Source: a virus
Virus record (IMG/VR): IMGVR_UViG_3300036886_000103
Coordinates: 1-41,398 of that record
Length of the DNA stretch: 41,398 nt
Reading direction: 5' to 3' (one strand)
Part shown: positions 9,355 through 38,745 of the stretch, piece after piece
Layout: the number at the start of each line of letters is the position of its first letter
Position numbering within the stretch: the stretch's first letter is position 1
Translations under genes and position numbers: made by a program
The notes under the pieces: generated by a model
What the model was told of the DNA's origin: nothing
Databases searched by the model: none
The model's input: the letters and a program-made list of their open reading frames with translations, nothing else

Positions 9355-9363
9355 TGTTATAAT
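9355..9363 (+). promoter_or_regulatory. Extended -10 promoter of the portal gene
   Basis: TGT-TATAAT (hexamer 9358-9363), starting two bases after the previous stop codon. Transcription from about 9370 would run straight into the hairpin below. Confidence 0.55.
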
Positions 9364-9370
9364 TATAGAA

Positions 9371-9404
9371 AGCACATAGCTATTTAAAGCGTGTGCTATT
9401 TTTA
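9371..9404 (+). terminator. Promoter-proximal hairpin with T-tract, portal leader
   Basis: AGCACA (9371-9376) pairs with TGTGCT (9392-9397), followed by ATTTTTA and then the ATG at 9407. The 5' arm contains the ACATA motif shared by four such leaders. It could act as an attenuator, as a terminator for upstream transcripts, or as a 5' stabilising element. Confidence 0.5.
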
Positions 9405-9406
9405 TT

Positions 9407-11446
9407 ATGGTAGAAAATTTAATGGTCGGGGCCTTCACTGAACGTAACCCCGAACGAATATCCTCTAAGGAAGGCGTCGCTACATTTCCTGTTGATCCGC
9501 TTGAACTTAAGATTGAGGATGATGAGTTGGTGCGCATTGTAGACCAGCATAGTGACGACTACGAGCTATTTTATGAGAACAAGTACGACCTATTCGCAAG
9601 GCGCAAGAAGAATGAAATATACTACTTTGGACGACAGGTAATGCAGAAGGAGAAGGAGCGACTACTCAAGGACTATGAGTCAAAGTATATGGATAACGTT
9701 CTATATGAGATAGGTGGTTCGCTTAAACCTCTCCTTATGACACGTTTACCTGATCTTATAGTTCTGCCAGGTAACGATAGTGACGAGGCAATGCTCACCT
9801 CTCAAGAGATAAGTAAAGCGGTAGACACGCAAATTAAAGATAGACAAAATAGACGGGTGCTAGGACTAGCGATTAAACACTTACCTGTCTACTTCACGGC
9901 AGTTATCAAGGTTAGATGGGATCCAGAGATTGATGACTACATATTTGAGAACATCCACCCCGACCTTATTGAGTGCGACTACACCTCAACGACTAAAGAC
10001 GCTGACTCCATGAGTTACGTGTCTCAAATTTGTCCATGGACTGTTGAGCAAGTTATGTTGAAGTTCCCCAAGAAGAAAGAAGAGTTTATTAGAGAGTTAC
10101 AAAAGGACGGACTTGCGGTAGACCCTGACGACCTGCCTAACTCACTACTTGCAACCACTATCAATGTGCGAGAGGTGTGGTTTGACGAGTACCAAAGTAA
10201 AAGCGACACTGAGGTTGAGAAGATATCGGGCTTACTTTGGAAGTACAAGGACTGTATCTTGGGTAAGATGAAGAACCCAAACTTTGACTATGAGGGTGAG
10301 AAGAGATACTTTAGTTATGATCCTCAGATCAAGGACAAAAGGGCATTAAACGAACAAGAGTTAAACTATGTACTTATGACCGGCCAACTGCCTCAAGGAG
10401 TCTCCGAGGAGCAGGTCTATCACAACTACTTTAGACATCCACGTAAACCTTATTACTTCATGGGCTACGACCAGTGGGGCAAACAACCGTATGATGAGAC
10501 CTCATGGATAGAGCAGAACTTAGGCAACCAAAAAGCGATAGATAAGCGAGGCAAACAACTAGAGGAGACGCTTGATAAGAGAGGACACCACGTATTTAGC
10601 AAGGAGTCAGGACTTACACCAGCTGACGTTGAGGAGCTTGACTTAAACGACCCAGATGAGGACTTAGTGGTAGATGGGGACGTAAATAGGACTCACGCTT
10701 TTATGGCACCAGAACGTCCTGCTAAGCAGGAGTTTGACGAGATGACTAACCTTAGAAATAGAATGTACGCTATCTCTCACAGTAACGCTATACGTGGACA
10801 AATACAAACAAGTGTGGCGACAACCAACCAAATAGCTAGAGAGGGCGACTTCACCTCAGCTGATGATATGGCTGAGGATACGATAAACGACGCTGCCCAA
10901 TGGATGGCTGACTGGGCTATGCAGTTCATCAAGCTCCGCTACACAGAAGACCATTTCAGGGATATTCTGGGAGTGGCCGGTGAGGCAGTCTACATCAAGC
11001 TCAACCGCAACATGGTAGGCGACGGGATGATAGTCAAGATAAAAGCCTCAGGCACTGATAAGTTAAGAGCGCAGAACAACGCACTTGAAATGGCGAAAAT
11101 GCAAATGACCGACCCTTATACGTTCTTTGTTGATATGGGATTATCTGATCCAGAGGGACGCACAGAGAAGTTGATACTAGCCAAGATGTCCCCGCAAGCT
11201 TACCTACAAAAGATAATCAAAGGAATAAACACAAGTGAGGCATTAGCTAAGGCCTTAATGGAACAAGAGCAAGTACCGCCTCCAGGCACTCCACAACAGC
11301 CAGGAGTACCACCAACTATGCCAGGAGCACAACCACCAATGGCAGGAGGACAGGCAGGGCCAGCAGCACCTCAAGCTCCAACTGTAACTAATACCGCCCA
11401 AGTTCCGACTGCCCCGCCAATAAACCCACCTCAGCCGATAATGTAA
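9407..11446 (+). CDS. Portal protein
   Basis: 679 aa, within the size range of podovirus-type portals. Between terminase and scaffold/capsid, it has the expected helical clip/stem/wing composition: an early segment with YYFGRQVM and SLKPLLMTRLPDL, a central VYFTAVIKVRWDPEIDDY / ENIHPDLIECD region, and a long helical C-terminal part (NDAAQWMADWAMQFIKLR). The last 60 residues are a disordered Pro/Gln/Ala-rich tail (PPPGTPQQPG...PINPPQPIM). It forms the dodecameric vertex through which DNA enters and leaves. An ATG 4 codons downstream (MVGAF) is an alternative start. Confidence 0.85.
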   Translation: MVENLMVGAFTERNPERISSKEGVATFPVDPLELKIEDDELVRIVDQHSDDYELFYENKYDLFARRKKNEIYYFGRQVMQKEKERLLKDYESKYMDNVLYEIGGSLKPLLMTRLPDLIVLPGNDSDEAMLTSQEISKAVDTQIKDRQNRRVLGLAIKHLPVYFTAVIKVRWDPEIDDYIFENIHPDLIECDYTSTTKDADSMSYVSQICPWTVEQVMLKFPKKKEEFIRELQKDGLAVDPDDLPNSLLATTINVREVWFDEYQSKSDTEVEKISGLLWKYKDCILGKMKNPNFDYEGEKRYFSYDPQIKDKRALNEQELNYVLMTGQLPQGVSEEQVYHNYFRHPRKPYYFMGYDQWGKQPYDETSWIEQNLGNQKAIDKRGKQLEETLDKRGHHVFSKESGLTPADVEELDLNDPDEDLVVDGDVNRTHAFMAPERPAKQEFDEMTNLRNRMYAISHSNAIRGQIQTSVATTNQIAREGDFTSADDMAEDTINDAAQWMADWAMQFIKLRYTEDHFRDILGVAGEAVYIKLNRNMVGDGMIVKIKASGTDKLRAQNNALEMAKMQMTDPYTFFVDMGLSDPEGRTEKLILAKMSPQAYLQKIIKGINTSEALAKALMEQEQVPPPGTPQQPGVPPTMPGAQPPMAGGQAGPAAPQAPTVTNTAQVPTAPPINPPQPIM

Positions 11447-11457
11447 AATAGGTATTG

Positions 11458-11466
11458 TGATAGAAT
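11458..11466 (+). promoter_or_regulatory. Extended -10 promoter, leaderless scaffold gene
   Basis: TGA-TAGAAT (hexamer 11461-11466), 6 bp (ATATAT), ATG at 11473. Confidence 0.5.
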
Positions 11467-11472
11467 ATATAT

Positions 11473-12456
11473 ATGCCAGACGAAAAACCATTAGAAAAAA
11501 TAGACAAGATAGTTGAAAAGACTAACACCGATGACAAATTCATTGCCAAACGTGATACAAGTAAAACACTACGACAGATAGCCTACGAGTCCAAAGAGCG
11601 AGTTAATAAAGCCAAAGAGGAGATAGTTAAAGAGCAGGATAAGATACCCGACACCAAGCCTGTTGTTAAAAAAGAAGAGAAGAAGGTTGAAAAGAAAGAG
11701 GAAAAGAAACCGGAGGCTCCAGTTATTGATGTAGAAAAGATAAAAGAAGAAGCTAGAAAAGTAGGCGAAGATAATGCTAAGAAAGAATTTGAAGCCAAGA
11801 CCAAAGAGATAATGGACAAAAAGGTAAGTGATGAACAAAAACAAAAAGAAGCTGATGAACTTATTGACATTTGGACTAAAGAGAAACGTATTCCTAAAGA
11901 CTACAAAGAGATAGTAACTGAAACCCACCGCTTAGCGGAGGTTAAAATGAAACAGGTACTTAGAGAGCGTGATGAGAAAGTTAAAGCCGAAACTGACGCC
12001 AGAGCCAAAGAGGTAGAGGACAAGAAAACCACCGAACAAAAGACCTATCAAGCGAGGGTGGACGCTATTAACAGTAAAGTAAAAAATGAGATGAATGAAC
12101 TCTATGAGGGTAAGTTCTTGAAGAAACCACCTGAAAAGTATGACGAAGGCGACAGCACTCAAAAGGAAACTGATGAGTTGATGAAGTTTGGAATAGACTT
12201 AAATGTTAAGCGAACGAAGGAAGGTTTGCCTCCTATAGACTCTATATCAAAGATTTACTTCATGCACTACAAGCCCTACGTTGAGGCACAAGGTAAGACG
12301 AAGTCTAAACAACCAGCAGGTCTTGATGCTCCAATTTCAGGTGCGAGGTCAACAGAGGATAAGGGCGAGAACAAAGGTTATCTATATAAACGTGACCACA
12401 ATAAAAGCTATAGACAAATTTTACAAGAGAACTTAAATCGTCAAAAGAAAGTATAA
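11473..12456 (+). CDS. Scaffolding-like protein
   Basis: 327 aa, almost entirely Lys/Glu/Asp-rich helix (about residues 30-240 coiled coil with KKEEKKVEKKEEKKPE-type runs) and a short globular C-terminal region ending GYLYKRDHNKSYRQIL. Position between portal and major capsid, extreme charge and coiled coil match phage scaffolding proteins, which guide prohead assembly through a basic C-terminal helix; the end here is basic (NLNRQKKV). Individual scaffold families are not sequence-conserved, so the call leans on position. Confidence 0.7.
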   Translation: MPDEKPLEKIDKIVEKTNTDDKFIAKRDTSKTLRQIAYESKERVNKAKEEIVKEQDKIPDTKPVVKKEEKKVEKKEEKKPEAPVIDVEKIKEEARKVGEDNAKKEFEAKTKEIMDKKVSDEQKQKEADELIDIWTKEKRIPKDYKEIVTETHRLAEVKMKQVLRERDEKVKAETDARAKEVEDKKTTEQKTYQARVDAINSKVKNEMNELYEGKFLKKPPEKYDEGDSTQKETDELMKFGIDLNVKRTKEGLPPIDSISKIYFMHYKPYVEAQGKTKSKQPAGLDAPISGARSTEDKGENKGYLYKRDHNKSYRQILQENLNRQKKV

Positions 12457-12463
12457 ATATCTA

Positions 12464-12492
12464 TTGACAAATGGTTTTAGCGGCATTATACT
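12464..12492 (+). promoter_or_regulatory. Strong sigma70-type promoter of the major capsid gene
   Basis: TTGACA (12464-12469), exactly 17 bp, TATACT (12487-12492). It is the only late structural promoter here with a consensus -35, as expected for the most abundant virion protein. Confidence 0.75.
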
Positions 12493-12507
12493 TTAACTAA
12501 TTAACGG

Positions 12508-12534
12508 ACATACCGGCAGAGATGCCGGTTTTTT
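12508..12534 (+). terminator. Promoter-proximal hairpin with T-tract, capsid leader
   Basis: ACATA motif at 12508-12512, then a 7-bp stem ACCGGCA/TGCCGGT (12512-12518, 12523-12529) with a GAGA loop and a run of six T. It has the form of an intrinsic terminator but lies downstream of the promoter and 22 bp before the capsid ATG. Confidence 0.6.
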
Positions 12535-12556
12535 AGTGGTCTAATTTATAAATTAT

Positions 12557-13711
12557 ATGAAAAACAAACTTTCAGGACTAACTTTTCATGTTTTGCTTCC
12601 TCGTTTCTATGACGGTATTCAAAATACCAACAGGGTAGACGGTACTACTCAAAGACAACTTTACACAAAAGTTGTGGATCAAATTTTAAATTCTCCGACA
12701 TACTACTCAAGACTTGTCTCACAAGGAGAACCCTTTGAAGGAAAAACAGAAGATATTACTTACGATGTGTTAGCTGATACTCAAGGACAGTATTTTACAT
12801 CTCTTGAGACTCTAAATTCCTCAGCCGTCAACACGACTGCAACAGGTAGCTATGCACACACTGCATTTACTCAACCGGTAGTTTCTATAATGCTTGAGTC
12901 ATTTGCCAACGTCGGTTCACTTGGAATAATTAACATTGATACGTTCAAGTATGAAAAGGCTGCTGCTCAAGCTCTACAAAGTTTGGGTAGTGCGATTTAC
13001 GGAACGGGTGCTGCTAATCAACCTTTAGGGTTGACAGCTATAATTGATGATGGATCAAACGTAGCAACAATCGGTGGACTTTCAAGAGCGACTTATACGA
13101 CATTAGTTTCCGTGTTAACAGCTTTCTCTGGAGGAAAATTAACTCTTGGAACGATAGCGACAGAATATGATTCATGTATTGCCTCAGGTATGGAACATGA
13201 AACTCCAAACATTGGAGTAGTTTCAAAGTCAACTTGGTCATTATACGAACAATTATTGACTCCAAACGTCAGAGCGACTTATAACGAAGTAGGTTATGAC
13301 AAGGTAAGAATTAGAAGCAAATTTGGTGAAAGAAATTCAGCTGAACTTAGAAATGCTGCTGGATTTAATGCACTTTCTTACCGAGATATGCACGTCATGA
13401 GAGATGACTTTTCAACCGCTCAGATGTTCTGGATGATAAATGAATTCTATATCGGTTGGAAAGGACGAACAGAAATTCCATCAGAATATCAAGATGTTTT
13501 AGAGAAAGTAAACTTTGGTACGATGGAAGCCTATGAAGGCACAGGAGCAGAAGCACTAGATATGCCATCAGAATTTAACGGATGGTTCTACCAGAAGCCA
13601 TTAACAATTCCCGATCAGGCTGGTAGGATTGCAAGATTTTATGTGATCGGACAAACAATACCGCATTCATTCCGACGCCATGCAAAGGGCACAGGAATTA
13701 CCGGTGTCTAA
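12557..13711 (+). CDS. Major capsid protein
   Basis: 384 aa, the normal size for an HK97-fold capsid subunit, directly after the scaffold and behind the strongest promoter. An extended N-terminal arm (about 1-60) is followed by alternating beta and helix with segments typical of the P and A domains (LESFANVGSLG, KYEKAAAQALQSLGSAI, TPNIGVVSKSTWSLYEQLL, FSTAQMFWMINEFYIGWKG). I cannot assign a named subfamily. Likely a substrate of the phage chaperonin, by analogy with other phages. Confidence 0.75.
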   Translation: MKNKLSGLTFHVLLPRFYDGIQNTNRVDGTTQRQLYTKVVDQILNSPTYYSRLVSQGEPFEGKTEDITYDVLADTQGQYFTSLETLNSSAVNTTATGSYAHTAFTQPVVSIMLESFANVGSLGIINIDTFKYEKAAAQALQSLGSAIYGTGAANQPLGLTAIIDDGSNVATIGGLSRATYTTLVSVLTAFSGGKLTLGTIATEYDSCIASGMEHETPNIGVVSKSTWSLYEQLLTPNVRATYNEVGYDKVRIRSKFGERNSAELRNAAGFNALSYRDMHVMRDDFSTAQMFWMINEFYIGWKGRTEIPSEYQDVLEKVNFGTMEAYEGTGAEALDMPSEFNGWFYQKPLTIPDQAGRIARFYVIGQTIPHSFRRHAKGTGITGV

Positions 13712-13722
13712 ATTATAAAAAT

Positions 13723-14463
13723 ATGGCAAACATAACAGGAGTAGGATTAATTTCAGGAGTAGATTTATATACATCAGAAACAACCCCAACTCATCCACTT
13801 GGAGCATTGTTATTTGGAATAAACGGCAAGGCATTTAGATATGTTCAAGCTGGAACGACTGCTTTAGTTGTAGGAAACGTCCTTCAAGGCCCAACAGTTG
13901 ATACACAATTTGATGATATGACACCAGGCACTTGTGCTGCAGGATTTGATGCTCAAGGTCAGGGTGTTCAAGTAGTAATTGGAACAACGACAGTTACAGC
14001 AAATATGTTTTCAGGAGCGTCACTAGCAGTGTCAGTTACTCCAGGACTTGGAGAAGAGTATACAGTTCAAGGACACACGACAGGAACCAGTGGAGGAACA
14101 TTGACCTTTTATCTAGATCGCAAAATTAGAACAGGTTGGACTTCAGCAACGAGAGTTACTTTAAGAAATTTATGGAATGGTGTTGTACAAGCTCCCGCAA
14201 CGACTTTAACCAATGCGGTAGCCGGAGTGGCAATCTATGCTCTCCCCGCCTCAACTTACGGTTGGATTCAGACTAAAGGATTATGTGCTGCACTAAATGA
14301 TGGATCAACAGCAGTAGTTGGATCTGACGTCGGCGCTCCAGGAACAGTAGCCGGAGCATTCGGAGTCAACGTAGCCGGATCAGGAAAGTCAAACAGCGTA
14401 GGAAGAATATTAAGAGCAAACGCATCAGGAAAAACAGTTCAAGTTTATTTAGACTTGGACTAA
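13723..14463 (+). CDS. Capsid decoration / minor head protein
   Basis: 246 aa, rich in Gly/Thr/Val/Ala and predicted all-beta. It follows the capsid gene by 11 bp and contains features common to head decoration or stabilisation proteins: a proline/threonine N-terminus (TSETTPTHPLGALLFG) and a middle with GEEYTVQGHTTG. Probably incorporated on the capsid surface; could instead be a head-fibre base. Confidence 0.5.
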   Translation: MANITGVGLISGVDLYTSETTPTHPLGALLFGINGKAFRYVQAGTTALVVGNVLQGPTVDTQFDDMTPGTCAAGFDAQGQGVQVVIGTTTVTANMFSGASLAVSVTPGLGEEYTVQGHTTGTSGGTLTFYLDRKIRTGWTSATRVTLRNLWNGVVQAPATTLTNAVAGVAIYALPASTYGWIQTKGLCAALNDGSTAVVGSDVGAPGTVAGAFGVNVAGSGKSNSVGRILRANASGKTVQVYLDLD

Positions 14464-14477
14464 TTAACTAAAATATT

Positions 14478-14954
14478 ATGGCTATAGACGTTTTAAAGAA
14501 CTTCGTACCAGGTATTAGGGAGAATGGAATAGTGACTGACGCAAACGTAACTTTAACAGGAACAGTTACTATGCCTACCTCACAAGCTTTAACCTCACCA
14601 GTTGTTACATCAGGCGCAACGGCGACCACAGGACAATTTAGATCATCTGTTGCAACGGTTTTAAATGGTACAGCGGGTACGGTATCTATTGACCCTACTT
14701 TGGGTTCGGTATTCACAATACTAGCTGGAACAATAACGGCTTTACAGGTTAATGCTGCCTCAGCCCCAGTGGGATCTGAAGTTGCTTTAGTTGTAACTAC
14801 AGTAGGAACGGCTAATGGAACTGTTACTTTCAATACTAATTTTAAGTCAACAGGAACTTTGGTAGTCGGTACAGTTACTGCCAAAGTATGGACAGTCAAC
14901 TTCTATGGCGATGGAACGAATCTAAATGAGACAGGGCGAACTACGGCAATGTGA
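14478..14954 (+). CDS. Beta-rich head-fibre-like protein
   Basis: 158 aa; a short helical start (MAIDVLKNFVPGIRENG) leads into Thr/Val/Gly-rich beta repeats (TLTGTVTMPTSQ, ITALQVNAASAPVGSE, VALVVTTVGTANGT) and a C-terminal KVWTVNFYGDGTN element seen in phage structural proteins that measure random or blank signals along a fibre shaft. Likely virion surface protein next to the capsid and decoration genes. Confidence 0.5.
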   Translation: MAIDVLKNFVPGIRENGIVTDANVTLTGTVTMPTSQALTSPVVTSGATATTGQFRSSVATVLNGTAGTVSIDPTLGSVFTILAGTITALQVNAASAPVGSEVALVVTTVGTANGTVTFNTNFKSTGTLVVGTVTAKVWTVNFYGDGTNLNETGRTTAM

Positions 14955-14966
14955 TTATAAATTTAA

Positions 14967-15245
14967 TTTAATACTACGACTTATAATTATATCGTTGGGA
15001 CAACCCCCACACAAGTCTACACAGGTATTGTAAAAAAAGCGATCATTCAAGTAAACGCTGCCTTAACTGGTAATATCATCGTTATAGACGGTACCTCAGG
15101 AACAGCTGCTAACGTAGCAATAATCACCAACCCGACGGTCGGATCAAGATATGAATATTATGGACTTCAAAATGGACTTCGTGTTATTGCCTCAACTACC
15201 TGTGATGTCACAGTAGCCGCCGACCTCTCAAGACAGGGAACATAA
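14967..15245 (+). pseudogene. Beta-rich structural ORF with no usual start codon
   Basis: An open frame of 92 codons plus TAA (15243-15245) is clearly coding in character (YNYIVGTTPTQVYTGIVKKA, then VIDGTSGTAANVAI, GSRYEYYGLQNGLRVI) and resembles the small beta-rich virion proteins beside it. Yet no ATG, GTG, TTG or CTG occurs in frame; the first possible codons after the in-frame TAA at 14964 are TTT AAT ACT ACG. The preceding gene is in the same frame but separated by TGA, TAA and TAA. Either the start is near-cognate (ACG 14976, ATC 14991), or a start was lost by mutation or assembly error: its upstream AATTTAATTTAAT matches the AT-rich leaders that precede ATG elsewhere. Confidence 0.55.
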
Positions 15246-15255
15246 TTAGCCTTTT

Positions 15256-15264
15256 TGTTATACT
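15256..15264 (+). promoter_or_regulatory. Extended -10 promoter, leaderless glycosyltransferase gene
   Basis: TGT-TATACT (hexamer 15259-15264), 6 bp, ATG at 15271. Confidence 0.55.
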
Positions 15265-15270
15265 TACATA

Positions 15271-16080
15271 ATGAAGAAACCTATTGTTGCCTTTACTTTT
15301 GCATCAGATCCAAAAAATATTGAATATCTGCGTAAAATGGTAAATTCTCTCCGCAAGTTTCATAGTGAAGAAGAACTGCCTTTAATTACTTATGGTTCAG
15401 ATGTTATAAAGACACTTCGTGATGAAAACCCCCTCAATAATAAAAGATTATCTCCTTTGATTACAAGAAACCTTATCAAGGAATACGACACAGTGCTACA
15501 CCTTGACGCAGACCAGATAATAACGGGAAGCTTGGATCGTTTAATAAAAATGAAAGATTATGACGCAGCTGGCCCTTATAACTTAAACAGGATAGATCCT
15601 AAGAGATATGGTGTGGTCAAGGTTTGGGATATAGAGCCAAAGGACTATTTCAATCTTGGGACTTTTGCGGTTAGAAGCGAAGAGTTTGCCGAGCATTGGT
15701 GGAGTCTTTGCAACTCATATCACATAAATAACTACCAGTATCACGAGCAGGATATATTTAACATAGTCGCCCATTTTGGCAACTACAAGGTAGTACGTCT
15801 TGACGAATGGGACGCAAAAGAGAACTATGGGGCCTTCTACGGGTTATCCTCAAAAGGTGAAGGGTTGAGAATGAAAGTAGTCGGGAACGAACTTATTTTA
15901 CCTAAGGCTGATGATGGCTACCCTTTACACGATATGGTAATCAAGATAATTCACTTTGCCGGAGGAGATAGTGCGGTTGATAAATTTAACTATAAAATTT
16001 TCTATAACGATGAAGTTAATAAATATTTAGATAACCTTATTGATGGAAAAAAAGAAATTAAAAATAATTTGGAACAGTAA
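15271..16080 (+). CDS. GT-A fold glycosyltransferase (GT8-like)
   Basis: 269 aa. N-terminal Rossmann-like strand (PIVAFTFASDPKN) and the metal/nucleotide-sugar motif DAD in LHLDADQIITGSL (79-81) are typical of GT-A enzymes such as glycogenin-like GT8; the acceptor half has YFNLGTFAVR, YHEQDIFNIVAHFG and a late IKIIHFAGG in which the His corresponds to the C-terminal metal ligand of these families. It would transfer a sugar from a nucleotide donor to an unknown acceptor. Being in the virion-protein block, a phage surface protein is a likely acceptor. It overlaps the second glycosyltransferase by 38 bp. Confidence 0.8.
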   Translation: MKKPIVAFTFASDPKNIEYLRKMVNSLRKFHSEEELPLITYGSDVIKTLRDENPLNNKRLSPLITRNLIKEYDTVLHLDADQIITGSLDRLIKMKDYDAAGPYNLNRIDPKRYGVVKVWDIEPKDYFNLGTFAVRSEEFAEHWWSLCNSYHINNYQYHEQDIFNIVAHFGNYKVVRLDEWDAKENYGAFYGLSSKGEGLRMKVVGNELILPKADDGYPLHDMVIKIIHFAGGDSAVDKFNYKIFYNDEVNKYLDNLIDGKKEIKNNLEQ

Positions 16081-17200
16081 CGCTCCCCATACTACAAGCG
16101 GATACGGTACGCAAATGGGACTACTCCTACCTCTTATCAAGAAGGAAGGGTATCCTGTCGCCTGTATCTGCTACTGGGGACTTGACGGGGGTAAGATTGA
16201 GATAGAGGGCATACCTTACTACTCTAAGTTAAACCACCTATTTGCCTCAGACGTCCTGAACTATCACACCCAAACCTTCAAAGCTGACGTAACCATGACG
16301 CTTCATGATATTTGGATACTTGATGAAAACCATTTGGCGACTCTTAAACATTTCATTCCTTGGGTGCCTATTGATATGGATCCCATACCTGAGAAGGTAC
16401 TCTCAAAACTTTACTATGCCTACCGAATACTCACTCATTCAAAGTTTGGGCTTAAGGCACTAAACAAGGCGGGGTTTAACGCAACCTATATTCCTTTGTC
16501 GGTAGATACGACAATTTTCAAGCCCATTGAAAGAAAAGGACTTCGTAAGGAGTTGGGTTTTCCAGAGGATGTATTCTTATTTGGGATGATAGCTGCCAAC
16601 AACGACGATCCCCCACGTAAGGCTTTTCAGGAGTGCATGGATGCTTTTGTGATGTTTAACAAAAAGCACCCGAAGAGTGGAATGTACTTTCATACAAGTA
16701 TTGCCAAGGCTGCAGGGTTTAACATACTTGAGTATTCAAAGTTCTTGGGGATAGCCGGTAAAATATGGTTCTTTGACGACTTCACGACAGCCTATAAGAC
16801 CGATAGAGCTTTTATGAACAAAATTTACAATACCTTTGACGTTCTTTTAAGTCCTTCCAAAAGCGAGGGGTTTGGAGTGCCGATAATTGAGGCTGCTGCT
16901 GCGGGAGTACCTGCAATTGTAAATAATTATTCAAGTATGCCAGAACTTGTTATCCCTCACGTAACAGGCGAAGTGTGTGACATCTTAGGCAAAGTGTACA
17001 CAAAGATAGGCTCCTACTGGATGACTCCCGACCCGAAAAGTATTTATGAGAAAATGGAAGCTTTATTTGAGGCAGACAGGGTAAAGATGGGAGAGAGAGC
17101 GAGGGAGTTTGTTGTTGAGAACTACGACACAACAAAAGTATTTGATAAGCATTGGAAACCGTACCTAGCCTTGTTAGAAAGTGAAATTTATAATAAATAG
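16043..17200 (+). CDS. GT-B fold glycosyltransferase (GT4-like)
   Basis: 385 aa from the ATG 16043 (an adjacent TTG at 16040 is less likely). The GT4-type donor site is clear: SPSKSEGFGVPIIEAAAAG around residues 269-287 with the E-x7-E motif, followed by PAIVNNYSSMPELV. The N-terminal half has NSNAPHTTSGYGTQMG, the acceptor-side loop. Together with the overlapping GT-A gene it forms a two-enzyme glycosylation cassette, transcribed with head and tail genes, suggesting successive sugar additions to a virion or host surface component. Confidence 0.85.
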   Translation: MEKKKLKIIWNSNAPHTTSGYGTQMGLLLPLIKKEGYPVACICYWGLDGGKIEIEGIPYYSKLNHLFASDVLNYHTQTFKADVTMTLHDIWILDENHLATLKHFIPWVPIDMDPIPEKVLSKLYYAYRILTHSKFGLKALNKAGFNATYIPLSVDTTIFKPIERKGLRKELGFPEDVFLFGMIAANNDDPPRKAFQECMDAFVMFNKKHPKSGMYFHTSIAKAAGFNILEYSKFLGIAGKIWFFDDFTTAYKTDRAFMNKIYNTFDVLLSPSKSEGFGVPIIEAAAAGVPAIVNNYSSMPELVIPHVTGEVCDILGKVYTKIGSYWMTPDPKSIYEKMEALFEADRVKMGERAREFVVENYDTTKVFDKHWKPYLALLESEIYNK

Positions 17201-17206
17201 GAGATA

Positions 17207-17215
17207 TGTTATCAT
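17207..17215 (+). promoter_or_regulatory. Extended -10 promoter upstream of 17239
   Basis: TGT-TATCAT (hexamer 17210-17215); predicted start about 17222, giving a 17-nt A/T-rich leader before the ATG at 17239. Confidence 0.4.
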
Positions 17216-17238
17216 TAGATATTAGCAATTAAATAATT

Positions 17239-19065: not shown

Positions 19066-19070
19066 TTAAT

Positions 19071-19583: not shown

Positions 19584-19584
19584 A

Positions 19585-19593
19585 TGATATAAT
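19585..19593 (+). promoter_or_regulatory. Extended -10 promoter of the 19639 fibre gene
   Basis: TGA-TATAAT (hexamer 19588-19593), followed by the ACATA-hairpin leader. Confidence 0.55.
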
Positions 19594-19607
19594 ATAACTA
19601 TTAAGGA

Positions 19608-19638
19608 ACATATCCTACCGCAGAGGTAGGTTTTTTTT
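19608..19638 (+). terminator. Promoter-proximal hairpin with T-tract, fibre leader
   Basis: ACATA (19608-19612), stem CCTACC/GGTAGG (19614-19619, 19625-19630), loop GCAGA, then eight T that run directly into the ATG at 19639. Confidence 0.55.
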
Positions 19639-20799
19639 ATGGTAAATCCAGCACCAAGAGATCCGAATTACGTACCTACAGTCTTACTTGACGATTCAGT
19701 CTCAAGTACGGCAATACCAGCAACGGGAATTGCTTTATCTGGAATTGAGGCACAGGCTGTAGCTATAGTTGACGCCTCAGGAAACCAGATAACTACTTTT
19801 GGCGGAGGACAACAGTACACAGATGGCGGAACTCCCCCTACTCACCCTATCGCACCTACTCTCAATTTTGATAATGGTGGTACTTGGCAACACGTGTCCT
19901 CAGCAAACCCACTTCCGGTAACGGGAGGCAATGGAACGGTTGCGGTATCTGGGACTGTACCTATCTCTGGGACAGTAACTAGTACGCCAGGCAATTCAAC
20001 GGGTGGAACTTTAGACCTTCTTAAAAATGGAACAGTGGCTATATCAGGCACAGTTCCTATATCTGGTACAGTGACAACGACAATGGGTAATATCACAGGT
20101 GGGACTATAAACCAAGTCCAGAATGCAGGTACAATTCAAAATATTTTAGGTGGAACTATAGCTCATGTTACTAATGTTGATGGTGGGACTATTGCTATAT
20201 CAGGAACTCCGAACATAAACATAGCAAGTTCAGGTCTTACTGCCCTAACTACAGCAACTGGAGTAAGAGATGCAAATACACTTCGGGTAACTGTTGCAAC
20301 TAATGATTTAGTTCCTATCTCAGGTACAGTTGGAGTATCTGGGACGGTACCCATATCTGGTACGATAGCCTCGGTTACTAACCTTGTAGGAGGAACAATA
20401 GGAGTACTTACTAGCGGTTCGGTAGTAGTCACAAATGGTACAGTAAAATTAGATGGTAGAGCTTCAAGAAATATCTTGTCTTTTGGAACTACGTTTGGTG
20501 GAACTGCAGCTGGGTACGGAACTTTAGTTGGTTCTGCTTCGGTTGGTTCAGGCACTTCACTTTGGGTTAATGACGTTTCGATTGTTAATAACTCAGGAAC
20601 TTTAACTGCAGCAGTTGGATTTGGTACGGTACTTAATGGGAGTAATATCATTGCTAAAGGCAATTTTGGGCCACAAGGTGGTATTGAAAAACACTTTCCG
20701 TTGGCGGTTAATGCAGGGAGTACTAATGCTGACTTAACTTGCTACATCTCAGCTGCTGGGACTGTAGATTTTAATGTAAGTTATTTCATATCAGCTTAA
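19639..20799 (+). CDS. Repetitive beta-rich tail fibre/appendage protein
   Basis: 386 aa. N-terminal PAPRDPNYVPTVLLDDSVSS resembles attachment segments of phage appendages; residues about 85-260 consist of repeated (V/I)SGTVPISGTV-type strands, a pattern known from phage tail and baseplate-associated proteins, probably a beta-helical or triple-stranded shaft. The C-terminal 115 residues (NILSFGTTFGGTAAGYG onward) form a compact beta domain. Likely trimeric fibre shaft. Confidence 0.6.
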   Translation: MVNPAPRDPNYVPTVLLDDSVSSTAIPATGIALSGIEAQAVAIVDASGNQITTFGGGQQYTDGGTPPTHPIAPTLNFDNGGTWQHVSSANPLPVTGGNGTVAVSGTVPISGTVTSTPGNSTGGTLDLLKNGTVAISGTVPISGTVTTTMGNITGGTINQVQNAGTIQNILGGTIAHVTNVDGGTIAISGTPNINIASSGLTALTTATGVRDANTLRVTVATNDLVPISGTVGVSGTVPISGTIASVTNLVGGTIGVLTSGSVVVTNGTVKLDGRASRNILSFGTTFGGTAAGYGTLVGSASVGSGTSLWVNDVSIVNNSGTLTAAVGFGTVLNGSNIIAKGNFGPQGGIEKHFPLAVNAGSTNADLTCYISAAGTVDFNVSYFISA

Positions 20800-20800
20800 T

Positions 20801-21646
20801 ATGAGTAATATCGCTGTACTAGTTGTGGCGGGTGGTGGTGGTGGTGGTGATGGTGTTAATTTTGCGAATAATGGTGGTGGTGGTGGTGCTGGAGGGTTAA
20901 TTTATAATGCTTCATTTACTGTTACGGCTCAAGCATATACGGTTACAATCGGAGGAGGTGGTGCAAGAAATACTAATGGAGTTAATTCTGTATTTTCTAC
21001 TTTAACTGCTGTTGGTGGTGGGGCAGGTGGGTTTGCAAGTAATGGAAGTGTAGGTGGTTCAGGTGGTGGAGGAGCAGGTGTTGGAGGTTATACTGGAGCG
21101 GCAGGAACAAGTGGACAAGGTTATGCCGGAGCAAATGGTGGAGTTTATGCCAACGGAGGAGGAGGTGGTGGTGGTGCTTCGCAAGTAGGAAATACAAATG
21201 GTGGTGATTTAGGTGGTGGTGGGGTTTCTAATTCTATTACTGGTTCTGCAGTAGTTTATGCTGGTGGAGGTTCGGGAGGTAATGATGCTGCAAGATTAGC
21301 TGGTGGAGCTGGTGGGGGAGGAACTGGAGCTGTTTATACTGATGTATCAGGTGGTGGAGCTGGTACTGCAAATTTAGGAGGAGGCGGTGGAGGTGGAGCT
21401 TCACGAACTACTCCAAATAATGTACCTGGAGGAGTAGGTGGTTCAGGTGTAGTAATCATAAGTTATGTAACACTTAACTTTGGAGTTTGTACTTCAGACG
21501 GAGTATTAAATGTAGATTATACAACAGGTATAAGTGGTTTAAATACAGTTTTTACATGGTTAACAACTGGTAATCATACTTTTACTGTAATTTTAGCTAC
21601 TAGTGGAGTTAAACCGTTAAGGACTTTACTTGGGGTGGGATATTGA
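20801..21646 (+). CDS. Glycine-rich fibre/adhesin protein
   Basis: 281 aa starting one base after the previous stop (TAATATG). The first 225 residues follow the glycine-rich phage fibre pattern (VLVVAGGGGGG..., AGGLIYNASFTVTAQAYTV, VTIGGGGA), which in other phages forms polyglycine-II sandwich tips that bind receptors. The last 55 residues form a separate beta domain (GVCTSDGVLNVDYTTG...NHTFTVIL). Probably the host-recognition tip associated with the upstream shaft protein. Confidence 0.65.
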   Translation: MSNIAVLVVAGGGGGGDGVNFANNGGGGGAGGLIYNASFTVTAQAYTVTIGGGGARNTNGVNSVFSTLTAVGGGAGGFASNGSVGGSGGGGAGVGGYTGAAGTSGQGYAGANGGVYANGGGGGGGASQVGNTNGGDLGGGGVSNSITGSAVVYAGGGSGGNDAARLAGGAGGGGTGAVYTDVSGGGAGTANLGGGGGGGASRTTPNNVPGGVGGSGVVIISYVTLNFGVCTSDGVLNVDYTTGISGLNTVFTWLTTGNHTFTVILATSGVKPLRTLLGVGY

Positions 21647-21652
21647 TAATTA

Positions 21653-21661
21653 TGCTATAAT
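21653..21661 (+). promoter_or_regulatory. Extended -10 promoter, leaderless 21668 gene
   Basis: TGC-TATAAT (hexamer 21656-21661), 6 bp, ATG at 21668. Confidence 0.6.
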
Positions 21662-21667
21662 TAACTC

Positions 21668-21868
21668 ATGTTAACTGTCAACATAGACTTCATTAAATCT
21701 GATACGAGTGATAAAAGCAACGTAGATTTTGTTAAGTCTAAAGACGTTAAGGAACTACCAGTCGTTCCAGTTGACGTTGTTCAGCCAGTCTTGGCAACAG
21801 GCGTTAAAGCAACGGTAGATGACGTTATTGGAGCATTACAAGAGTTAAATTTAGTTACACAAAAATAA
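21668..21868 (+). CDS. Small structural-type protein, 66 aa
   Basis: Acidic N-terminal half with Val/Pro linker (KELPVVPVDVVQPVLATG) and a C-terminal helix ATVDDVIGALQELNLVTQK of a kind found at the end of phage head-fibre and trimerising proteins. Leaderless promoter upstream; TAATATG junction to the adaptor gene downstream. Function unknown. Confidence 0.5.
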   Translation: MLTVNIDFIKSDTSDKSNVDFVKSKDVKELPVVPVDVVQPVLATGVKATVDDVIGALQELNLVTQK

Positions 21869-21869
21869 T

Positions 21870-22844
21870 ATGCGCATAACTTATGATAATCTTAAGGCTC
21901 AACACCTTAGAAATATAAATTTAGTTGGTAGTATAGACACTAATATCATAGCCGATTTTAATATGAATTTAGGCAACAGATATCAGTTGGCTTTAGCCGT
22001 ACTTCGTGACTACAAAACAGTCAAGCCTTACTCTATCTCAACTGCCAACAACACCCAGATATACGCTTTTCCGCCTGGATTGGTTACTATTGAGGGAGGA
22101 TATATCACGATAGGAGCGGTTAACTATCCTCTACGTCCCATTCTTTCAAGGTGGAACATTGAGCAGTTAAATGCTATCCAAATTCAAGCCTCAGCTATTC
22201 CCCAGTTTTTCTTTGTTGAACAGGACTCTTTTCAGATATGGCCCATTCCTCAGGATGTTTACACAGGGAAGATTTACTATCACTTTAGAGATAGAAATTT
22301 ATCAGTAGCTGACTTCTCAACTGGAACTATAACTTTAACCAATGGCTCGGCTATCGTGACTAACAGTTCGGCAGTATTTACTCCAGCGATGGTTGGCAGG
22401 TGGTTGACGGTGACCGACACAACAGTACCAGGACAAGGATATTGGTACAGGATAACAGGGTATACAGACGCTTCAAACTTAACTCTTGGTACAAGTAACG
22501 GCCAACCTGTCTTATGGAATAACGCCACGGCAACACCAGCGACCTACGTGATAGGAGAGACACCTGAGTTACCGGAGGAACTACATTCTATTTTAGCGTG
22601 GGGAACGGCCTCAGACTTTTATGGTGGAATGAGAAAAGACCCCGCCAACCAGATAATGTATGACAACTTGTTCTGGACGGGGAACGCCAAAAACGACCAG
22701 AGAGCATTAGGTAAAAGCCAGAACTTAGGAGGGTTGATTGGGGCGATAGACCGCTATGCTGATCGTGATGATAGGCATTTAATTAAGAGAAGACCAAAAT
22801 TGAATCCGTTACAATATAAAGTTTTTGCAACTACATTAAGTTAA
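21870..22844 (+). CDS. Head-tail adaptor / tail tube A-like protein
   Basis: 324 aa. An N-terminal helical half (LGNRYQLALAVLRDYKTVKP) and beta region (NTQIYAFPPGLVTIEGGYI...YPLRPILSRWNIEQLNAIQI), then a central beta insert, and a C-terminal helical element PELPEELHSILAWGTASDFYGG typical of phage adaptor proteins (Pro-rich entry then a helix). It precedes the large beta-rich tail protein exactly as tail tube A precedes tail tube B in short-tailed phages. It would dock below the portal. Confidence 0.6.
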   Translation: MRITYDNLKAQHLRNINLVGSIDTNIIADFNMNLGNRYQLALAVLRDYKTVKPYSISTANNTQIYAFPPGLVTIEGGYITIGAVNYPLRPILSRWNIEQLNAIQIQASAIPQFFFVEQDSFQIWPIPQDVYTGKIYYHFRDRNLSVADFSTGTITLTNGSAIVTNSSAVFTPAMVGRWLTVTDTTVPGQGYWYRITGYTDASNLTLGTSNGQPVLWNNATATPATYVIGETPELPEELHSILAWGTASDFYGGMRKDPANQIMYDNLFWTGNAKNDQRALGKSQNLGGLIGAIDRYADRDDRHLIKRRPKLNPLQYKVFATTLS

Positions 22845-22846
22845 AA

Positions 22847-22855
22847 TGCTATAAT
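22847..22855 (+). promoter_or_regulatory. Extended -10 promoter, leaderless nozzle gene
   Basis: TGC-TATAAT (hexamer 22850-22855), 6 bp, ATG at 22862. Confidence 0.6.
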
Positions 22856-22861
22856 TAACTT

Positions 22862-25800
22862 ATGGCAAATACTCCTTTCCAACAAAAACGCTTCCAAGGA
22901 ATTGCGGATTATACTAAAGAAAGTGCTAATGGACAAATTGAAAGTACCGTCTATTTTTGCCGAGCTGTTAATTACCGTGACGACCCGTCAGCCATTACCC
23001 TACTTCCTGCCTCAGTCAAAGAGTCAGGATCAAACGTCACCGACTTAATTAAGTGGGGTGAACTTGTACCCGTCACCCTTAACTCTTACTTTTATGGAAA
23101 TGTAGGTAATATCTATCAACGGACTTCGGCTGCCTCTTGGAGCAACCTACACACGGCCCCAGTTTCACACGGCAATGGAATGGCCTATTTTACGGGTGAC
23201 GACTACCTCTATTACACAACCGATAAGTCCTTTGGACGCTATGGGCCTATGCAAAACTCACCAGCTTTTACTGATGACTACTTGAAGTCTTTAGGAGGAG
23301 TGGCACAAAACACCAATTCACTATCGGTACTTGCCGCCTCCTCAATGTACGCAACCGCTGCTGATTCAGCCTCTCTTTCTGTTACCGGAAACTTAACACT
23401 GGAAACTTATTTCAAAGCTACAACTCTTCCGACAGTCGGAAATTCAATGACTTTAATTGGAAAGTGGGACGAGTCAGGAGCAACAAGGTCTTACAAACTT
23501 GACCTTTACGGAGTGTCGGGGTACTTTGGTGACGGTTCAGATGGGGCTTTGGTAATATCAACTAATACGACAGAAGCGCCTATAGATAGCGCCTGTAGTG
23601 GAACAGCTGGTACTCAAAGCTTGACCGCAACTAACGTATCATTTGCCGCCGGACAGGTTATTCTAATTCACCAGACACAAGGATCAAACGCTGGACAATA
23701 TGAGCGAAATAAGATCCAAGGATATACGGCGGGGACAATAACACTGGATACTCCGCTTATTGGATCTTATACAACCGGCGCACAGGTTAGAGTGTTAAAA
23801 CAATATACAAACGTAACAATAAATAGTGCTAAAACTTATACCGCTAAGGCTTGGAATGGGACAGTGGGAGGCATATTGGCTTTCTTGGCTTCAGGTACAG
23901 TAACTGTGACAGGTTTAATTGATGCTACAGGTAAGGGTTTTAGAGGTGGAATAGAAAATATAGGTCTTTACGGAAATGGATATTGTGGAGAAGGAACTGT
24001 AGGTGCATCTTATCAGTGGCCTCATTCAAACGGAAATGGAGGAGGAGGAGGAGACAACAATATAGTATCAACCGGTGGAGCAGGGGGAGGAAATGCAAAT
24101 GCTGCCTTAGATATTCATCTTGGGAATTATATTATTAGAGGAGGTCTGGCAAGTGGATCAAATGATCTAACAACAATGACATTTGGTGGTGGTGGTGGAG
24201 GTGCAGGAAATAGCGTTAATTTCCCACAAACAGGTGCTATTGGTGGAACTGGTGGAGGAATTATTTTTATTTCTGGAGTTACTGTAACAATAACAGGAAG
24301 TATTGTATCAAATGGAAACAATGGAGGATCTGATAGTTATTCATATTATGGGGGTTCTGGAGCTGGAGGATCAATTCTTATTAAGACTCAGGTTGCGACT
24401 TTAGGAACAAGTTTAATTTTATCAAATGGAGGATCGGCTCAAGGAACAGGAGATAAATCAGGAGGAGCTGGTTCAGTAGGACGAATAGCTATTAATTATC
24501 TCACTTCCTATACAGGTACTACCAATCCCACTCTAAATCCTATTCTTGATAATACTTTAGTCACAACAACGACAATTCAAGCACGTTTAGGTATTTCAAA
24601 TGACGGTACTAACTTTGAATACCTGACACAAAACCTTAACAACTTGACTACGGCAACGTGGAATAGGTTAAGTGTTACGTGGTTAGCCGCCTCGTCCCTT
24701 GCGACCTTTTACCTCAACGCAGTGGCATTAGGTACCTCAACAGGGACTAAGACTGCCATTCACGACAATGCCTCGCTTCTTTACGTAGGAGCCAACAAGA
24801 CGTCAGTTGCCGCCAATTTCTTTAACGGACTAATTGACGACATACGAATATGGAACAATGTTCAAACGGCAACGCAAATAACAACTAACCTTAATCAGTA
24901 CATAAACGTGGCGTCCTCTGGCCTACAGGCTTACTATCACTTAGACAACGCCTTGACTGACGCAACCTCAAATGCCAACACGCTTACTGGAGTCAACACG
25001 CCTACTTTCTCAGTTGACGTGCCTTTTCCAGCCTATACGACACGCTTAGATATTGACGCTCAAAGCACCAATACTGGACAGACTTATACACTTTTAACTT
25101 CAATATCTGAAGCAGCAGCTGATAAACTGTCCTTCACCCCAGTTAACGACCCTCAGGCCTCGGTTGGTTTCTACGTAGATACCAAAGGTACAGGCAACTT
25201 TACCGTTACAGTTCACGACAACCAGAATAAAGTGATTGCGACCTCAACTGTCTTAACTGCCAACATTCCCACAGCTGGGTTTGTGGAGTTCTTCTTTACC
25301 CCTTGGAGAATAATCACAGGCAAAAGTTACCACATACACCTTACAGTCTCAACGGGCACTTCGAAGGTTGTAACAGGTACAACTGCCGACTTTTCAACTG
25401 CCGAGTATAAGACCTTCTTCGGGTGGTTAGTCACTGACACCCAGTTTCATCCAGCAGTCCAGTTTCAGTATCAGCCTTTGGGGGGAGTGTTAACTGGAGC
25501 GATGATATATGGAAATGAACGGTACTTAGCAGTGTGGGATGGAGCTAATTACAGTCCTAATTTTATCGCCTTTCCTCCTGCGTGGCACGTCAGGTGCTTC
25601 GGGTTTTGGAGAGAGTTTCTAGCTATAGGTATGTGGCGGGGAGGCAACATCTATGACTTTTCAATGGGGCGTATCTACTTCTGGGACGGAATAGGTCAGA
25701 CTTACAACTTCTTTATTGACGTACCAGATGGGCCTATAAACGCCATGTTTGGGGTGGATACTGACCTTTTCTTCTTTGCTGGGTGGAGGGGACAGTTACT

Positions 25801-26494
25801 TGACTATCAGGGAGGATATTTCTACAATACCGGAAACACCCAGTCAGCTAAGCTTAAAAGGATGCCTTTAATTGCCCCAGGCGACTATACGGAAGTCAAC
25901 CCAGGAGCTATCAATATGTGGCGTGGGCTCCTACACTTTGGGCTGTTTGCCAATTCTAATTCAACGACAATGCAACGTGGAGTTTACTCATTTGGAACCT
26001 TGAACCAATACTACCCATCAACTTTGTCTTATGATTACGTAGTTTCTACAGGCAGTAGAAGTAACACCGTAACTATTGGCTGTGTCTATCCTGTAGGGCA
26101 GTCCCTTATTGTAGGTTGGCAGGATGGGATAGCCTACGGAGCTGATATGGTAAACTTTGGCAACGCTCCTGCCCCATCTGGCGAGATACAGCTTCTAATT
26201 CAAGATGACGGCTCGCTTTATTCTCAGAAGGAAAACTTTGTAGTGAGAGCCGACTTCATGCCTCTTAAGACTGGAGAGAGCGTTGACGTCAAGTACAATG
26301 TAGACCGAAGCGGTTGGATAACTTCAACCCTAGATACAACAGTAGGAGACATTTTCACTAAGCAGACAATAGGAACAGGTAGAAGCCGTGAAGTTCAAAT
26401 CGGTGTAGATATTTACGCTACAGGGCTTACTAGTCCTACTTTACTTAGCATAGCAGGACAACATGATACTGGAAGTTCTGAAACGGCTTTTTAA
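22862..26494 (+). CDS. Large tail nozzle-like protein with split LamG domain and Gly-rich insertion
   Basis: 1210 aa, the largest gene. Residues 1-150 (FQQKRFQGIADYTKESANGQ; VYFCRAVNYRDDPSAI; GNIYQRTSAASWS) match the beginning of beta-propeller nozzle proteins (tail tube B type). A LamG/jelly-roll domain starts near 170 (LTLETYFKATTLP) and resumes near 567, ending near 680 (FNGLIDDIRIWNNVQT); about 345 residues are inserted between, including a Gly-rich beta-helical stretch (about 390-536). Residues 720-1190 form a further beta-propeller-like region (RYLAVWDGANYSP, REFLAIGMWRGG, DLFFFAGWRGQ). No tape measure is present, so this is read as the tail hub/nozzle of a short tail carrying adhesion domains. 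Confidence 0.6.
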   Translation: MANTPFQQKRFQGIADYTKESANGQIESTVYFCRAVNYRDDPSAITLLPASVKESGSNVTDLIKWGELVPVTLNSYFYGNVGNIYQRTSAASWSNLHTAPVSHGNGMAYFTGDDYLYYTTDKSFGRYGPMQNSPAFTDDYLKSLGGVAQNTNSLSVLAASSMYATAADSASLSVTGNLTLETYFKATTLPTVGNSMTLIGKWDESGATRSYKLDLYGVSGYFGDGSDGALVISTNTTEAPIDSACSGTAGTQSLTATNVSFAAGQVILIHQTQGSNAGQYERNKIQGYTAGTITLDTPLIGSYTTGAQVRVLKQYTNVTINSAKTYTAKAWNGTVGGILAFLASGTVTVTGLIDATGKGFRGGIENIGLYGNGYCGEGTVGASYQWPHSNGNGGGGGDNNIVSTGGAGGGNANAALDIHLGNYIIRGGLASGSNDLTTMTFGGGGGGAGNSVNFPQTGAIGGTGGGIIFISGVTVTITGSIVSNGNNGGSDSYSYYGGSGAGGSILIKTQVATLGTSLILSNGGSAQGTGDKSGGAGSVGRIAINYLTSYTGTTNPTLNPILDNTLVTTTTIQARLGISNDGTNFEYLTQNLNNLTTATWNRLSVTWLAASSLATFYLNAVALGTSTGTKTAIHDNASLLYVGANKTSVAANFFNGLIDDIRIWNNVQTATQITTNLNQYINVASSGLQAYYHLDNALTDATSNANTLTGVNTPTFSVDVPFPAYTTRLDIDAQSTNTGQTYTLLTSISEAAADKLSFTPVNDPQASVGFYVDTKGTGNFTVTVHDNQNKVIATSTVLTANIPTAGFVEFFFTPWRIITGKSYHIHLTVSTGTSKVVTGTTADFSTAEYKTFFGWLVTDTQFHPAVQFQYQPLGGVLTGAMIYGNERYLAVWDGANYSPNFIAFPPAWHVRCFGFWREFLAIGMWRGGNIYDFSMGRIYFWDGIGQTYNFFIDVPDGPINAMFGVDTDLFFFAGWRGQLLDYQGGYFYNTGNTQSAKLKRMPLIAPGDYTEVNPGAINMWRGLLHFGLFANSNSTTMQRGVYSFGTLNQYYPSTLSYDYVVSTGSRSNTVTIGCVYPVGQSLIVGWQDGIAYGADMVNFGNAPAPSGEIQLLIQDDGSLYSQKENFVVRADFMPLKTGESVDVKYNVDRSGWITSTLDTTVGDIFTKQTIGTGRSREVQIGVDIYATGLTSPTLLSIAGQHDTGSSETAF

Positions 26495-26495
26495 T

Positions 26496-27074
26496 ATGGA
26501 CAAAACCGACAACAAAGACACACAACCCGTTGATACAACCCAACCCGACAATAAAATAGGCAGTCCTATTCCTATCATAAGTCAGCAAAACATAGCCCCT
26601 GGGGCAATTAAACAACGACACCTAGTCCCCAGTCCTACCCAAAAAGGGGATATGTATTATGGTAGTAATGGAGGGTTTGCTAACTTACCTGTGGGAACTT
26701 CAGGACAGGTTTTGACAATATTAAATGGAGTACCGGTATGGGGTGGATCAACTGGTAGTAATACTAATGGCTCTTATACTAAATTTGCCAATGGAACTCT
26801 AATTCAATGGGGAGCGCCCTCCTACGGGGCATCAGGCGGTGGCCCTTGGGGAACTTCACCTTATTGTAAAGGCTTTACAATAACTTACCCTATTTCTTTT
26901 CTAGCCGTTCCTTATACAGTAGCCCAAGCCGAAGAGACCTCAGCGGCAACATTTTCTTGGATAGGATATTTAACTAGTAAGACTGTATCAGGGTGCAATG
27001 GGTATATATTCAATAACGTAACAATCGGAGCAAATACAACAGTATCTTGGATAGCCGTTGGAAAATGGAAATAA
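26496..27074 (+). CDS. Tail fibre protein with C-terminal receptor-binding domain
   Basis: 192 aa, started at the ATG in the TAATATG junction rather than the ATG at 26463. Acidic/polar N-terminus, a fibre motif (GDMYYGSNGGFANLPVG, then SGQVLTILNGVPVWGG) and a C-terminal domain beginning YTKFANGTLIQWG with ITYPISFLAVPYTV and closing VSWIAVGKW, the pattern of gp53-like receptor-binding tips. Likely recognises the host surface. Confidence 0.75.
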   Translation: MDKTDNKDTQPVDTTQPDNKIGSPIPIISQQNIAPGAIKQRHLVPSPTQKGDMYYGSNGGFANLPVGTSGQVLTILNGVPVWGGSTGSNTNGSYTKFANGTLIQWGAPSYGASGGGPWGTSPYCKGFTITYPISFLAVPYTVAQAEETSAATFSWIGYLTSKTVSGCNGYIFNNVTIGANTTVSWIAVGKWK

Positions 27075-27077
27075 AAG

Positions 27078-27086
27078 TGTTATAAT
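27078..27086 (+). promoter_or_regulatory. Extended -10 promoter of the 27145 gene
   Basis: TGT-TATAAT (hexamer 27081-27086), followed by the ACATA-hairpin leader. Confidence 0.55.
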
Positions 27087-27097
27087 TAACCTAAGGC

Positions 27098-27126
27098 ACA
27101 TAGCCACCTGAAAGAGTGGCTTTTTT
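27098..27126 (+). terminator. Promoter-proximal hairpin with T-tract, ejection-gene leader
   Basis: ACATA (27098-27102), stem AGCCAC/GTGGCT (27102-27107, 27116-27121), 8-nt loop, six T, then an A/T-only stretch and the ATG at 27145. Confidence 0.55.
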
Positions 27127-27144
27127 ATTAGTTTAATTTATAAT

Positions 27145-38743: not shown

Positions 38744-38745
38744 AT

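Follow-up and report, generated by a model that had tools for sequence, protein, structure and literature searches.

A predicted RNA attenuator with a phage-specific loop in the leaders of late genes of Patescibacteria-linked phages

Why should a phage place an intrinsic terminator between a promoter and the virion gene that follows it? This arrangement occurs four times in the IMG/VR virus record IMGVR_UViG_3300036886_000103, analyzed here over its whole length of 41,398 nucleotides (nt) (the 41.4-kb window; GC content, 38%), where leaders upstream of the portal gene, the major capsid gene, and two further genes consist of a promoter, the pentanucleotide ACATA, a hairpin, and a T-tract. Our analysis suggests, with a probability of about 0.6, that each leader is a late-gene transcription attenuator, a two-state RNA switch from which a loop-specific factor would free the virion genes. 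The conserved structure of the leaders and the mutual exclusivity of their hairpins are supported by sequence and predicted folding. The genes concerned are:

9407 to 11446, plus strand: portal protein gene, 26% identical to the annotated portal of phage MW202566; family in 20 of 20 genomes
12557 to 13711, plus strand: major capsid protein gene (phrog_9953, E = 4e-23)
19639 to 20799, plus strand: gene for a 386-amino-acid protein, called “fibre” in an earlier note made from the sequence alone; no family match found
27145 to 27963, plus strand: late gene for a 272-amino-acid protein, called “ejection protein” in the same note; function not assigned; kept in 19 of 20 genomes

The names “fibre” and “ejection protein” drew no support from any family match here, and the former is retained only as a label.

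All four leaders described in the earlier note were found at the places it gave, and its distance of 10 to 15 base pairs (bp) from promoter to ACATA agrees with the 10, 15, 14, and 11 nt measured from the end of the −10 hexamer in the portal, capsid, fibre, and 27145 leaders, respectively. The promoters are credible, that of the capsid gene being TTGACA-17-TATACT and the other three having the extended −10 sequence TGN-TATAAT. The proposed context AAGG-ACATA did not hold up; the actual context is NNN-ACATA-N′N′N′, in which complementary trinucleotides flank the motif. ACATA is the loop of a small hairpin (here the mini-hairpin, with arm 1 before the loop and arm 2 after it) that had been missed, and three bases on each side pair in four of four leaders (portal, AGC/GCT; capsid, CGG/CCG; fibre, GGA/TCC; 27145, GGC/GCC). 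In the portal leader, the stem is not the separate one that the note placed downstream of ACATA; it begins within arm 1 and continues across the loop (9371 to 9397). The parts of the four leaders are:

9358 to 9363, plus strand: portal leader −10, TGT-TATAAT, an extended −10 (sequence; extended −10 enrichment)
9371 to 9381, plus strand: portal mini-hairpin, AGC-ACATA-GCT
9371 to 9397, plus strand: portal terminator hairpin predicted by RNAfold, its stem starting in arm 1 and taking up the loop; T-tract 9399 to 9403, ATG at 9407
12464 to 12492, plus strand: capsid promoter, TTGACA-17-TATACT (11 of 12 matches)
12505 to 12515, plus strand: capsid mini-hairpin, CGG-ACATA-CCG
12512 to 12535, plus strand: capsid terminator, ACCGGCA-gaga-TGCCGGT and T-tract; ATG at 12557
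19588 to 19593, plus strand: −10 of the fibre-like gene leader, TGA-TATAAT
19604 to 19616, plus strand: fibre leader mini-hairpin, AGGA-ACATA-TCCT
19614 to 19638, plus strand: fibre leader terminator, CCTACC-gcaga-GGTAGG and T8; ATG at 19639
27081 to 27086, plus strand: 27145 gene leader −10, TGT-TATAAT
27095 to 27105, plus strand: 27145 leader mini-hairpin, GGC-ACATA-GCC
27102 to 27126, plus strand: 27145 leader terminator, AGCCAC...GTGGCT and T-tract; ATG at 27145

The pentanucleotide itself is common in the window (42 copies on the plus strand and 34 on the minus strand), but ACATA between complementary trinucleotides with at least three G/C occurs five times in the whole window, and four of the five are the reported sites, each lying downstream of a −10 and upstream of a T-tract. 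The top terminator-like sites of the region include three of the four leader hairpins, the portal hairpin being longer and imperfect. No Rfam family matched the window at the gathering score. Elsewhere on the plus strand, TATAAT or TATACT, mostly after TGN, stands 5 to 6 nt before the ATG at 3684, 15271, 19071, 21668, 22862, and 28472, as in promoters of leaderless mRNAs; the genes of this phage form two classes, leaderless and attenuated.

In predicted folds, the mini-hairpin and the terminator compete for the same bases. The terminator stems of the capsid, fibre, and 27145 leaders have arm 2 as their 5′ foot, the 5′ side of the portal terminator is arm 1 plus the loop, and formation of the terminator destroys the mini-hairpin in all four. 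Exclusion also holds in related phages whose terminators are built like that of the window portal, from arm 1 and the loop (several in genome G020 and one in G002). Among 88 elements, the mini-hairpin is wholly lost from the minimum free energy fold of the full leader in 87, the predicted flip from mini-hairpin to terminator precedes the T-tract by a median of 1 nt, and the median predicted energy is −1.6 kcal/mol for the mini-hairpin and −12 kcal/mol for the full leader. Because the terminator is so much the more stable, the predicted default state is OFF, and a stabilizer of the mini-hairpin would be needed to leave it.

The element extends well beyond the window. A profile of 13 capsids led to 80 viral loci and 4 genome loci, and 19 further contigs, taken whole or nearly whole, were scanned for leaders. 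The capsid upstream regions of most relatives contain a promoter, arm 1, an A/U-rich loop, arm 2, a terminator, and a T-tract; most relatives have the series TGN-TATAAT, mini-hairpin, terminator, and T-tract before capsid, portal, and other late genes, and most of the scanned contigs hold several copies upstream of different late genes. By family, the leader was found for the 27145 family in 13 of 19 genomes, for capsid in 13 of 20, and for portal in 9 of 20. In a covariance search of the kind proposed in the earlier note, a model of the leader matched phage DNA 49 times (E ≤ 1). The conserved unit includes the mini-hairpin, which the note had not seen, and several dozen contigs of related phages carry it. 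Between promoter and capsid gene, tandem hairpin-terminator units occur in L008, L050-L052, and L062, each unit with its own arm 1 and the second units lacking an evident −10:

L008, 9840 to 10000: tandem units with the genome's own loop type
L062, 9800 to 9990: tandem units with the genome's own loop type
L052, 9880 to 10010: tandem units

A more distant group (L094-L102, G022, G023, and MW202566) has a similar layout in which a fixed motif, roughly AACGC...AGC, precedes the terminator and there are no variable arms. Separately, distant-clade capsid leaders (L094-L102, G022, G023, and L048) carry a fixed motif of about AAGAACGC..AAGC in place of variable arms. This fixed motif may represent an earlier form of the same control or a variant of it. 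Pattern scans added little: a first viral scan gave 29 contigs, of which almost none had complementary arms or a well-formed hairpin and which were discarded as chance matches, and two later scans returned mainly contigs already collected, plus two 54.8-kb contigs in which the scanner found no credible leader.

The pairing of the arms was assessed on 98 nonredundant TGN-TATAAT leaders with a terminator before an open reading frame (ORF), chosen regardless of the mini-hairpin. A mini-hairpin is present in 79 of these, compared with a mean of 33.3 and a maximum of 45.5 over 300 trials in which 5′ halves were swapped between genomes; for capsid leaders alone the count is 47 of 62, compared with 12.3 on swapping (maximum, 18.6). 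Pair counts on an alignment (A3) were strong but biased, since its rows had been chosen for pairing, and the swap tests were relied on instead. Of terminators between a −10 and a gene, 67% are accompanied by arm 1; for the other terminator-like hairpins of this DNA, the figure is about 26%. The −10 that precedes the hairpin is extended (TGN-TATAAT) in 71 of 88 elements, compared with 17% of other TATAAT sequences, which contradicts the refuting case named in the earlier note, that the hairpins simply end upstream transcripts and that initiation follows the T-tract.

The loop, by contrast with the arms, is private to a genome, with types ACATA, ACACA, AATTTA, NNTATA, and NTTC. For pairs of elements with different arms, agreement in at least four of five loop bases was seen in 68% of those drawn from one genome and in 23% of those drawn from two, a difference reached in 0 of 1,000 permutations. 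A DNA operator was rejected because the arms differ between copies yet stay complementary. Pairing of the loop with the start-codon region, an idea suggested by CAUA/UAUG in the window, was dropped because the loops of other genomes (TTTC and ACACA) have no such partner.

Arms that vary but stay paired, combined with a genome-private loop, suggest that a trans-acting factor recognizes the loop within a hairpin. In the proposed model, RNA polymerase would start 6 to 8 nt past TATAAT, and the first transcribed bases would fold into a hairpin of 3 to 5 bp (arm 1, loop, and arm 2). Some 15 to 25 nt later the terminator hairpin would be complete, taking arm 2 or arm 1 plus the loop, and transcription would stop at the U-tract after about 35 to 50 nt, the mini-hairpin alone being too weak to resist. 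A factor recognizing the loop (ACATA in this phage), most likely phage encoded, would hold the mini-hairpin and so block the base of the terminator stem, allowing polymerase to enter the portal, capsid, fibre, and 27145 genes, which would form one regulon under a loop-specific antiterminator. We infer the start sites, the termination, the factor and its phage origin, and the equation of binding with the ON state. A phage-encoded factor is the simplest guess because the examined host genomes lack the element and the loops differ by phage. In G003, TTC is common to the bases before arm 1 and the end of the loop, so recognition may extend 5′ of the mini-hairpin. That every tandem capsid unit has an arm 1 to itself, as seen in three genomes, favors a local rather than a processive mechanism.

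Several points weigh against this interpretation. The case is built from sequence and predicted folding, and the flip point comes from equilibrium prefix folding. Because the terminator occupies the greater part of the leader, some of the exclusivity is to be expected, and the count of 87 of 88 has no chance control. In a noisier set, arm 1 sequences of one genome also resemble each other somewhat more than those of different genomes, so partial common descent of the leaders is possible. Two late-region genes of the same phage, at 22862 and 28472, have leaderless promoters and no switch. Finally, domains of known RNA-binding antiterminators are absent at E ≤ 1 from the 13 element-bearing phage records, both ANTAR (PF03861) and CAT_RBD (PF03123).

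Among other explanations, the least unlikely, though still doubtful, is a switch without protein, in which the mini-hairpin forms first and delays completion of the terminator, so that polymerase speed, pausing, temperature, or nucleoside triphosphate level would determine readthrough. It suits the prediction that the mini-hairpin stays the favored fold up to about 1 nt short of the T-tract, and arm 1 is the same as arm 3, a natural strand-displacement pair; it leaves the phage-private loop with varying arms unexplained, however, and at a median of −1.6 kcal/mol the mini-hairpin is very weak. Somewhat less probable again is reading of the loop by a host factor of the NusA, NusG, or ribosomal-protein type, the loop of each phage then tracking its host species. 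Patescibacteria are very diverse, and phages with different loops may have different hosts, but the leaders are not enriched in 116 Patescibacteria genomes or in 500 kb of one metagenome-assembled genome (MAG), a comparison in which hosts are known for at most a minority of contigs. In that MAG, 4 of 13 promoter-terminator-ORF leaders have a mini-hairpin, which is chance level, compared with 60 of 76 in 776 kb of phage DNA, and such arrangements are about fourfold rarer there. The leader covariance model, run with stricter filters and tuned to phage loops, gave three chance-level matches in the 116 genomes.

A hairpin and a U-rich stretch before the AUG also occur in other abundant phage mRNAs, and the leaders could be 5′ stabilizers or translation enhancers with no termination involved. 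The need for abundant capsid mRNA and an ATG only 0 to 3 nt after the T-tract in the window portal and fibre leaders would accord with this, but we consider it improbable: the distance from T-tract to ATG varies widely, a Shine-Dalgarno-like sequence lies far downstream in some relatives, stabilizers have no need to be mutually exclusive, and tandem hairpin-T-tract units exist. The cap-like stabilizer and decoy short RNAs offered in the earlier note fit poorly because the mini-hairpin and the terminator are mutually exclusive, stems differ between copies, and tandem copies share one leader in three genomes. Least probable of all is the arrangement of lambdoid late operons, in which a Q-like protein loaded from DNA would overcome a promoter-proximal terminator, with the mini-hairpin incidental. 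A short terminated leader before late genes does resemble lambdoid pR′, but a DNA site would not need arms that vary and still pair, several separate promoters each have a unit, and the second tandem units have no evident −10. Attenuation by a phage antiterminator reading ACATA, which the earlier note had listed without seeing the mini-hairpin that makes it concrete, is the best-supported reading.

How does the proposed attenuator relate to known ones? The feature that defines the class, two hairpins unable to coexist of which one is an intrinsic terminator, is present in the predicted folds and the covariation. In lambda, the Arg-rich N protein reads boxB, a small pentaloop hairpin that accompanies boxA, differs between phages, and acts processively over distant terminators from one nut site per operon. 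The likeness lies in a phage system with a small hairpin and a phage-specific loop; here the action is apparently local, and every terminator has its own overlapping hairpin, which argues against membership in the N/boxB group. Target RNAs of ANTAR proteins have short-stem mini-hairpins with fixed loop bases before an intrinsic terminator, overlapping its 5′ part (PMC3369931). The targets of EutV, NasR, and AmiR share that placement and overlap with the leaders, but are two tandem hexaloop hairpins with A1 and G4, whereas the leaders have a single hairpin at the RNA 5′ end, an A/U-rich loop of 5 to 7 nt (ACATA, AATTTA, or ACACA) that varies per phage with no fixed G4, and a place before phage late genes, no ANTAR domain being found at E ≤ 1 in the 13 phage records. 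In RAT elements, a protein-held antiterminator hairpin overlaps and excludes the adjacent terminator (PMC3369931), as here, but the RAT of BglG, SacY, and LicT is 29 to 30 nt long and bound by CAT_RBD, compared with about 11 to 14 nt, variable arms, and no CAT_RBD in the 13 records. Lambda Q is loaded at a sigma-dependent pause that needs a DNA element (PMC7171158), and Xp10 P7 binds polymerase (PMC6624301); both are phage-encoded factors that overcome a terminator, at late genes in the case of Q, and neither depends on a covarying RNA hairpin. By this comparison the leaders would work like the ANTAR/EutV and BglG/RAT switches while failing their defining features, and may represent a new variant within the attenuators.

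One candidate for the factor, a weak one, is encoded in the window:

5738 to 6052, plus strand: gene for a small Cys-rich protein of 104 amino acids, with profile matches in all 13 element-bearing genomes

The protein has CxxC motifs and is mostly basic, and its family is the only one in all 13 genomes to lie outside the virion-gene block; it is also present in relatives without a clear element. Its structure model (predicted local distance difference test [pLDDT], 86; predicted template modeling score [pTM], 0.49) matched no fold in PDB or BFVD significantly. With nothing linking it to RNA, the protein is a weak lead. We give even odds to the fuller proposal that each late terminator is fused to a minimal hairpin whose loop is read by a phage-encoded RNA-binding antiterminator of unassigned family, which this protein could be, with loop specificity having diverged phage by phage to give mutually insulated switches in Patescibacteria-linked phages.

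The link to Patescibacteria comes from capsid relatives. The window has matches to GroEL, large terminase, and major capsid, plus one GroES-like gene. In GenBank its capsid has only two relatives, phages MW202566 and MG269973 (30 to 32% identity), the latter recorded with the host candidate division TM7, and a Patescibacteria MAG holds a close relative with 79% capsid identity; for these reasons the host is probably a patescibacterium. Other bins that hold capsid relatives, assigned to Scalindua, Terriglobia, and Brocadia, may be wrongly binned.

No description of the element was found in the open-licence papers searched, in which the timing of late genes in Patescibacteria phages also appears undescribed. 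The findings suggest that late genes are turned on and off by a switch not described before, under the control of a putative loop-reading factor. This compact RNA unit of about 45 nt, present in dozens of related phages, predicts membership in the late regulon. If a loop-specific factor exists, the phages offer a natural panel of recognition pairs for the study of RNA-protein specificity and as regulatory parts.

Some further features concern the minus-strand region of the window. The product of 34418 to 34987 on that strand has a weak match to NinG (E = 1e-4, below the curated cutoff) and another weak match to the profile of the HNH-containing gene at 31254 to 31946. A 12-bp tandem repeat (CCCNGACCTGAN) is present in many copies at 39541 to 39789, inside the minus-strand ORF at 39407 to 40243, and a 48-bp direct repeat, 96% identical, occurs at 36551 to 36598 and 38573 to 38620, 2 kb apart. 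A 29-bp repeat at 35659 to 35687, 36982 to 37010, and 38718 to 38746 lies at the 5′ ends of three minus-strand ORFs, whose small products therefore probably have an N-terminal peptide in common.
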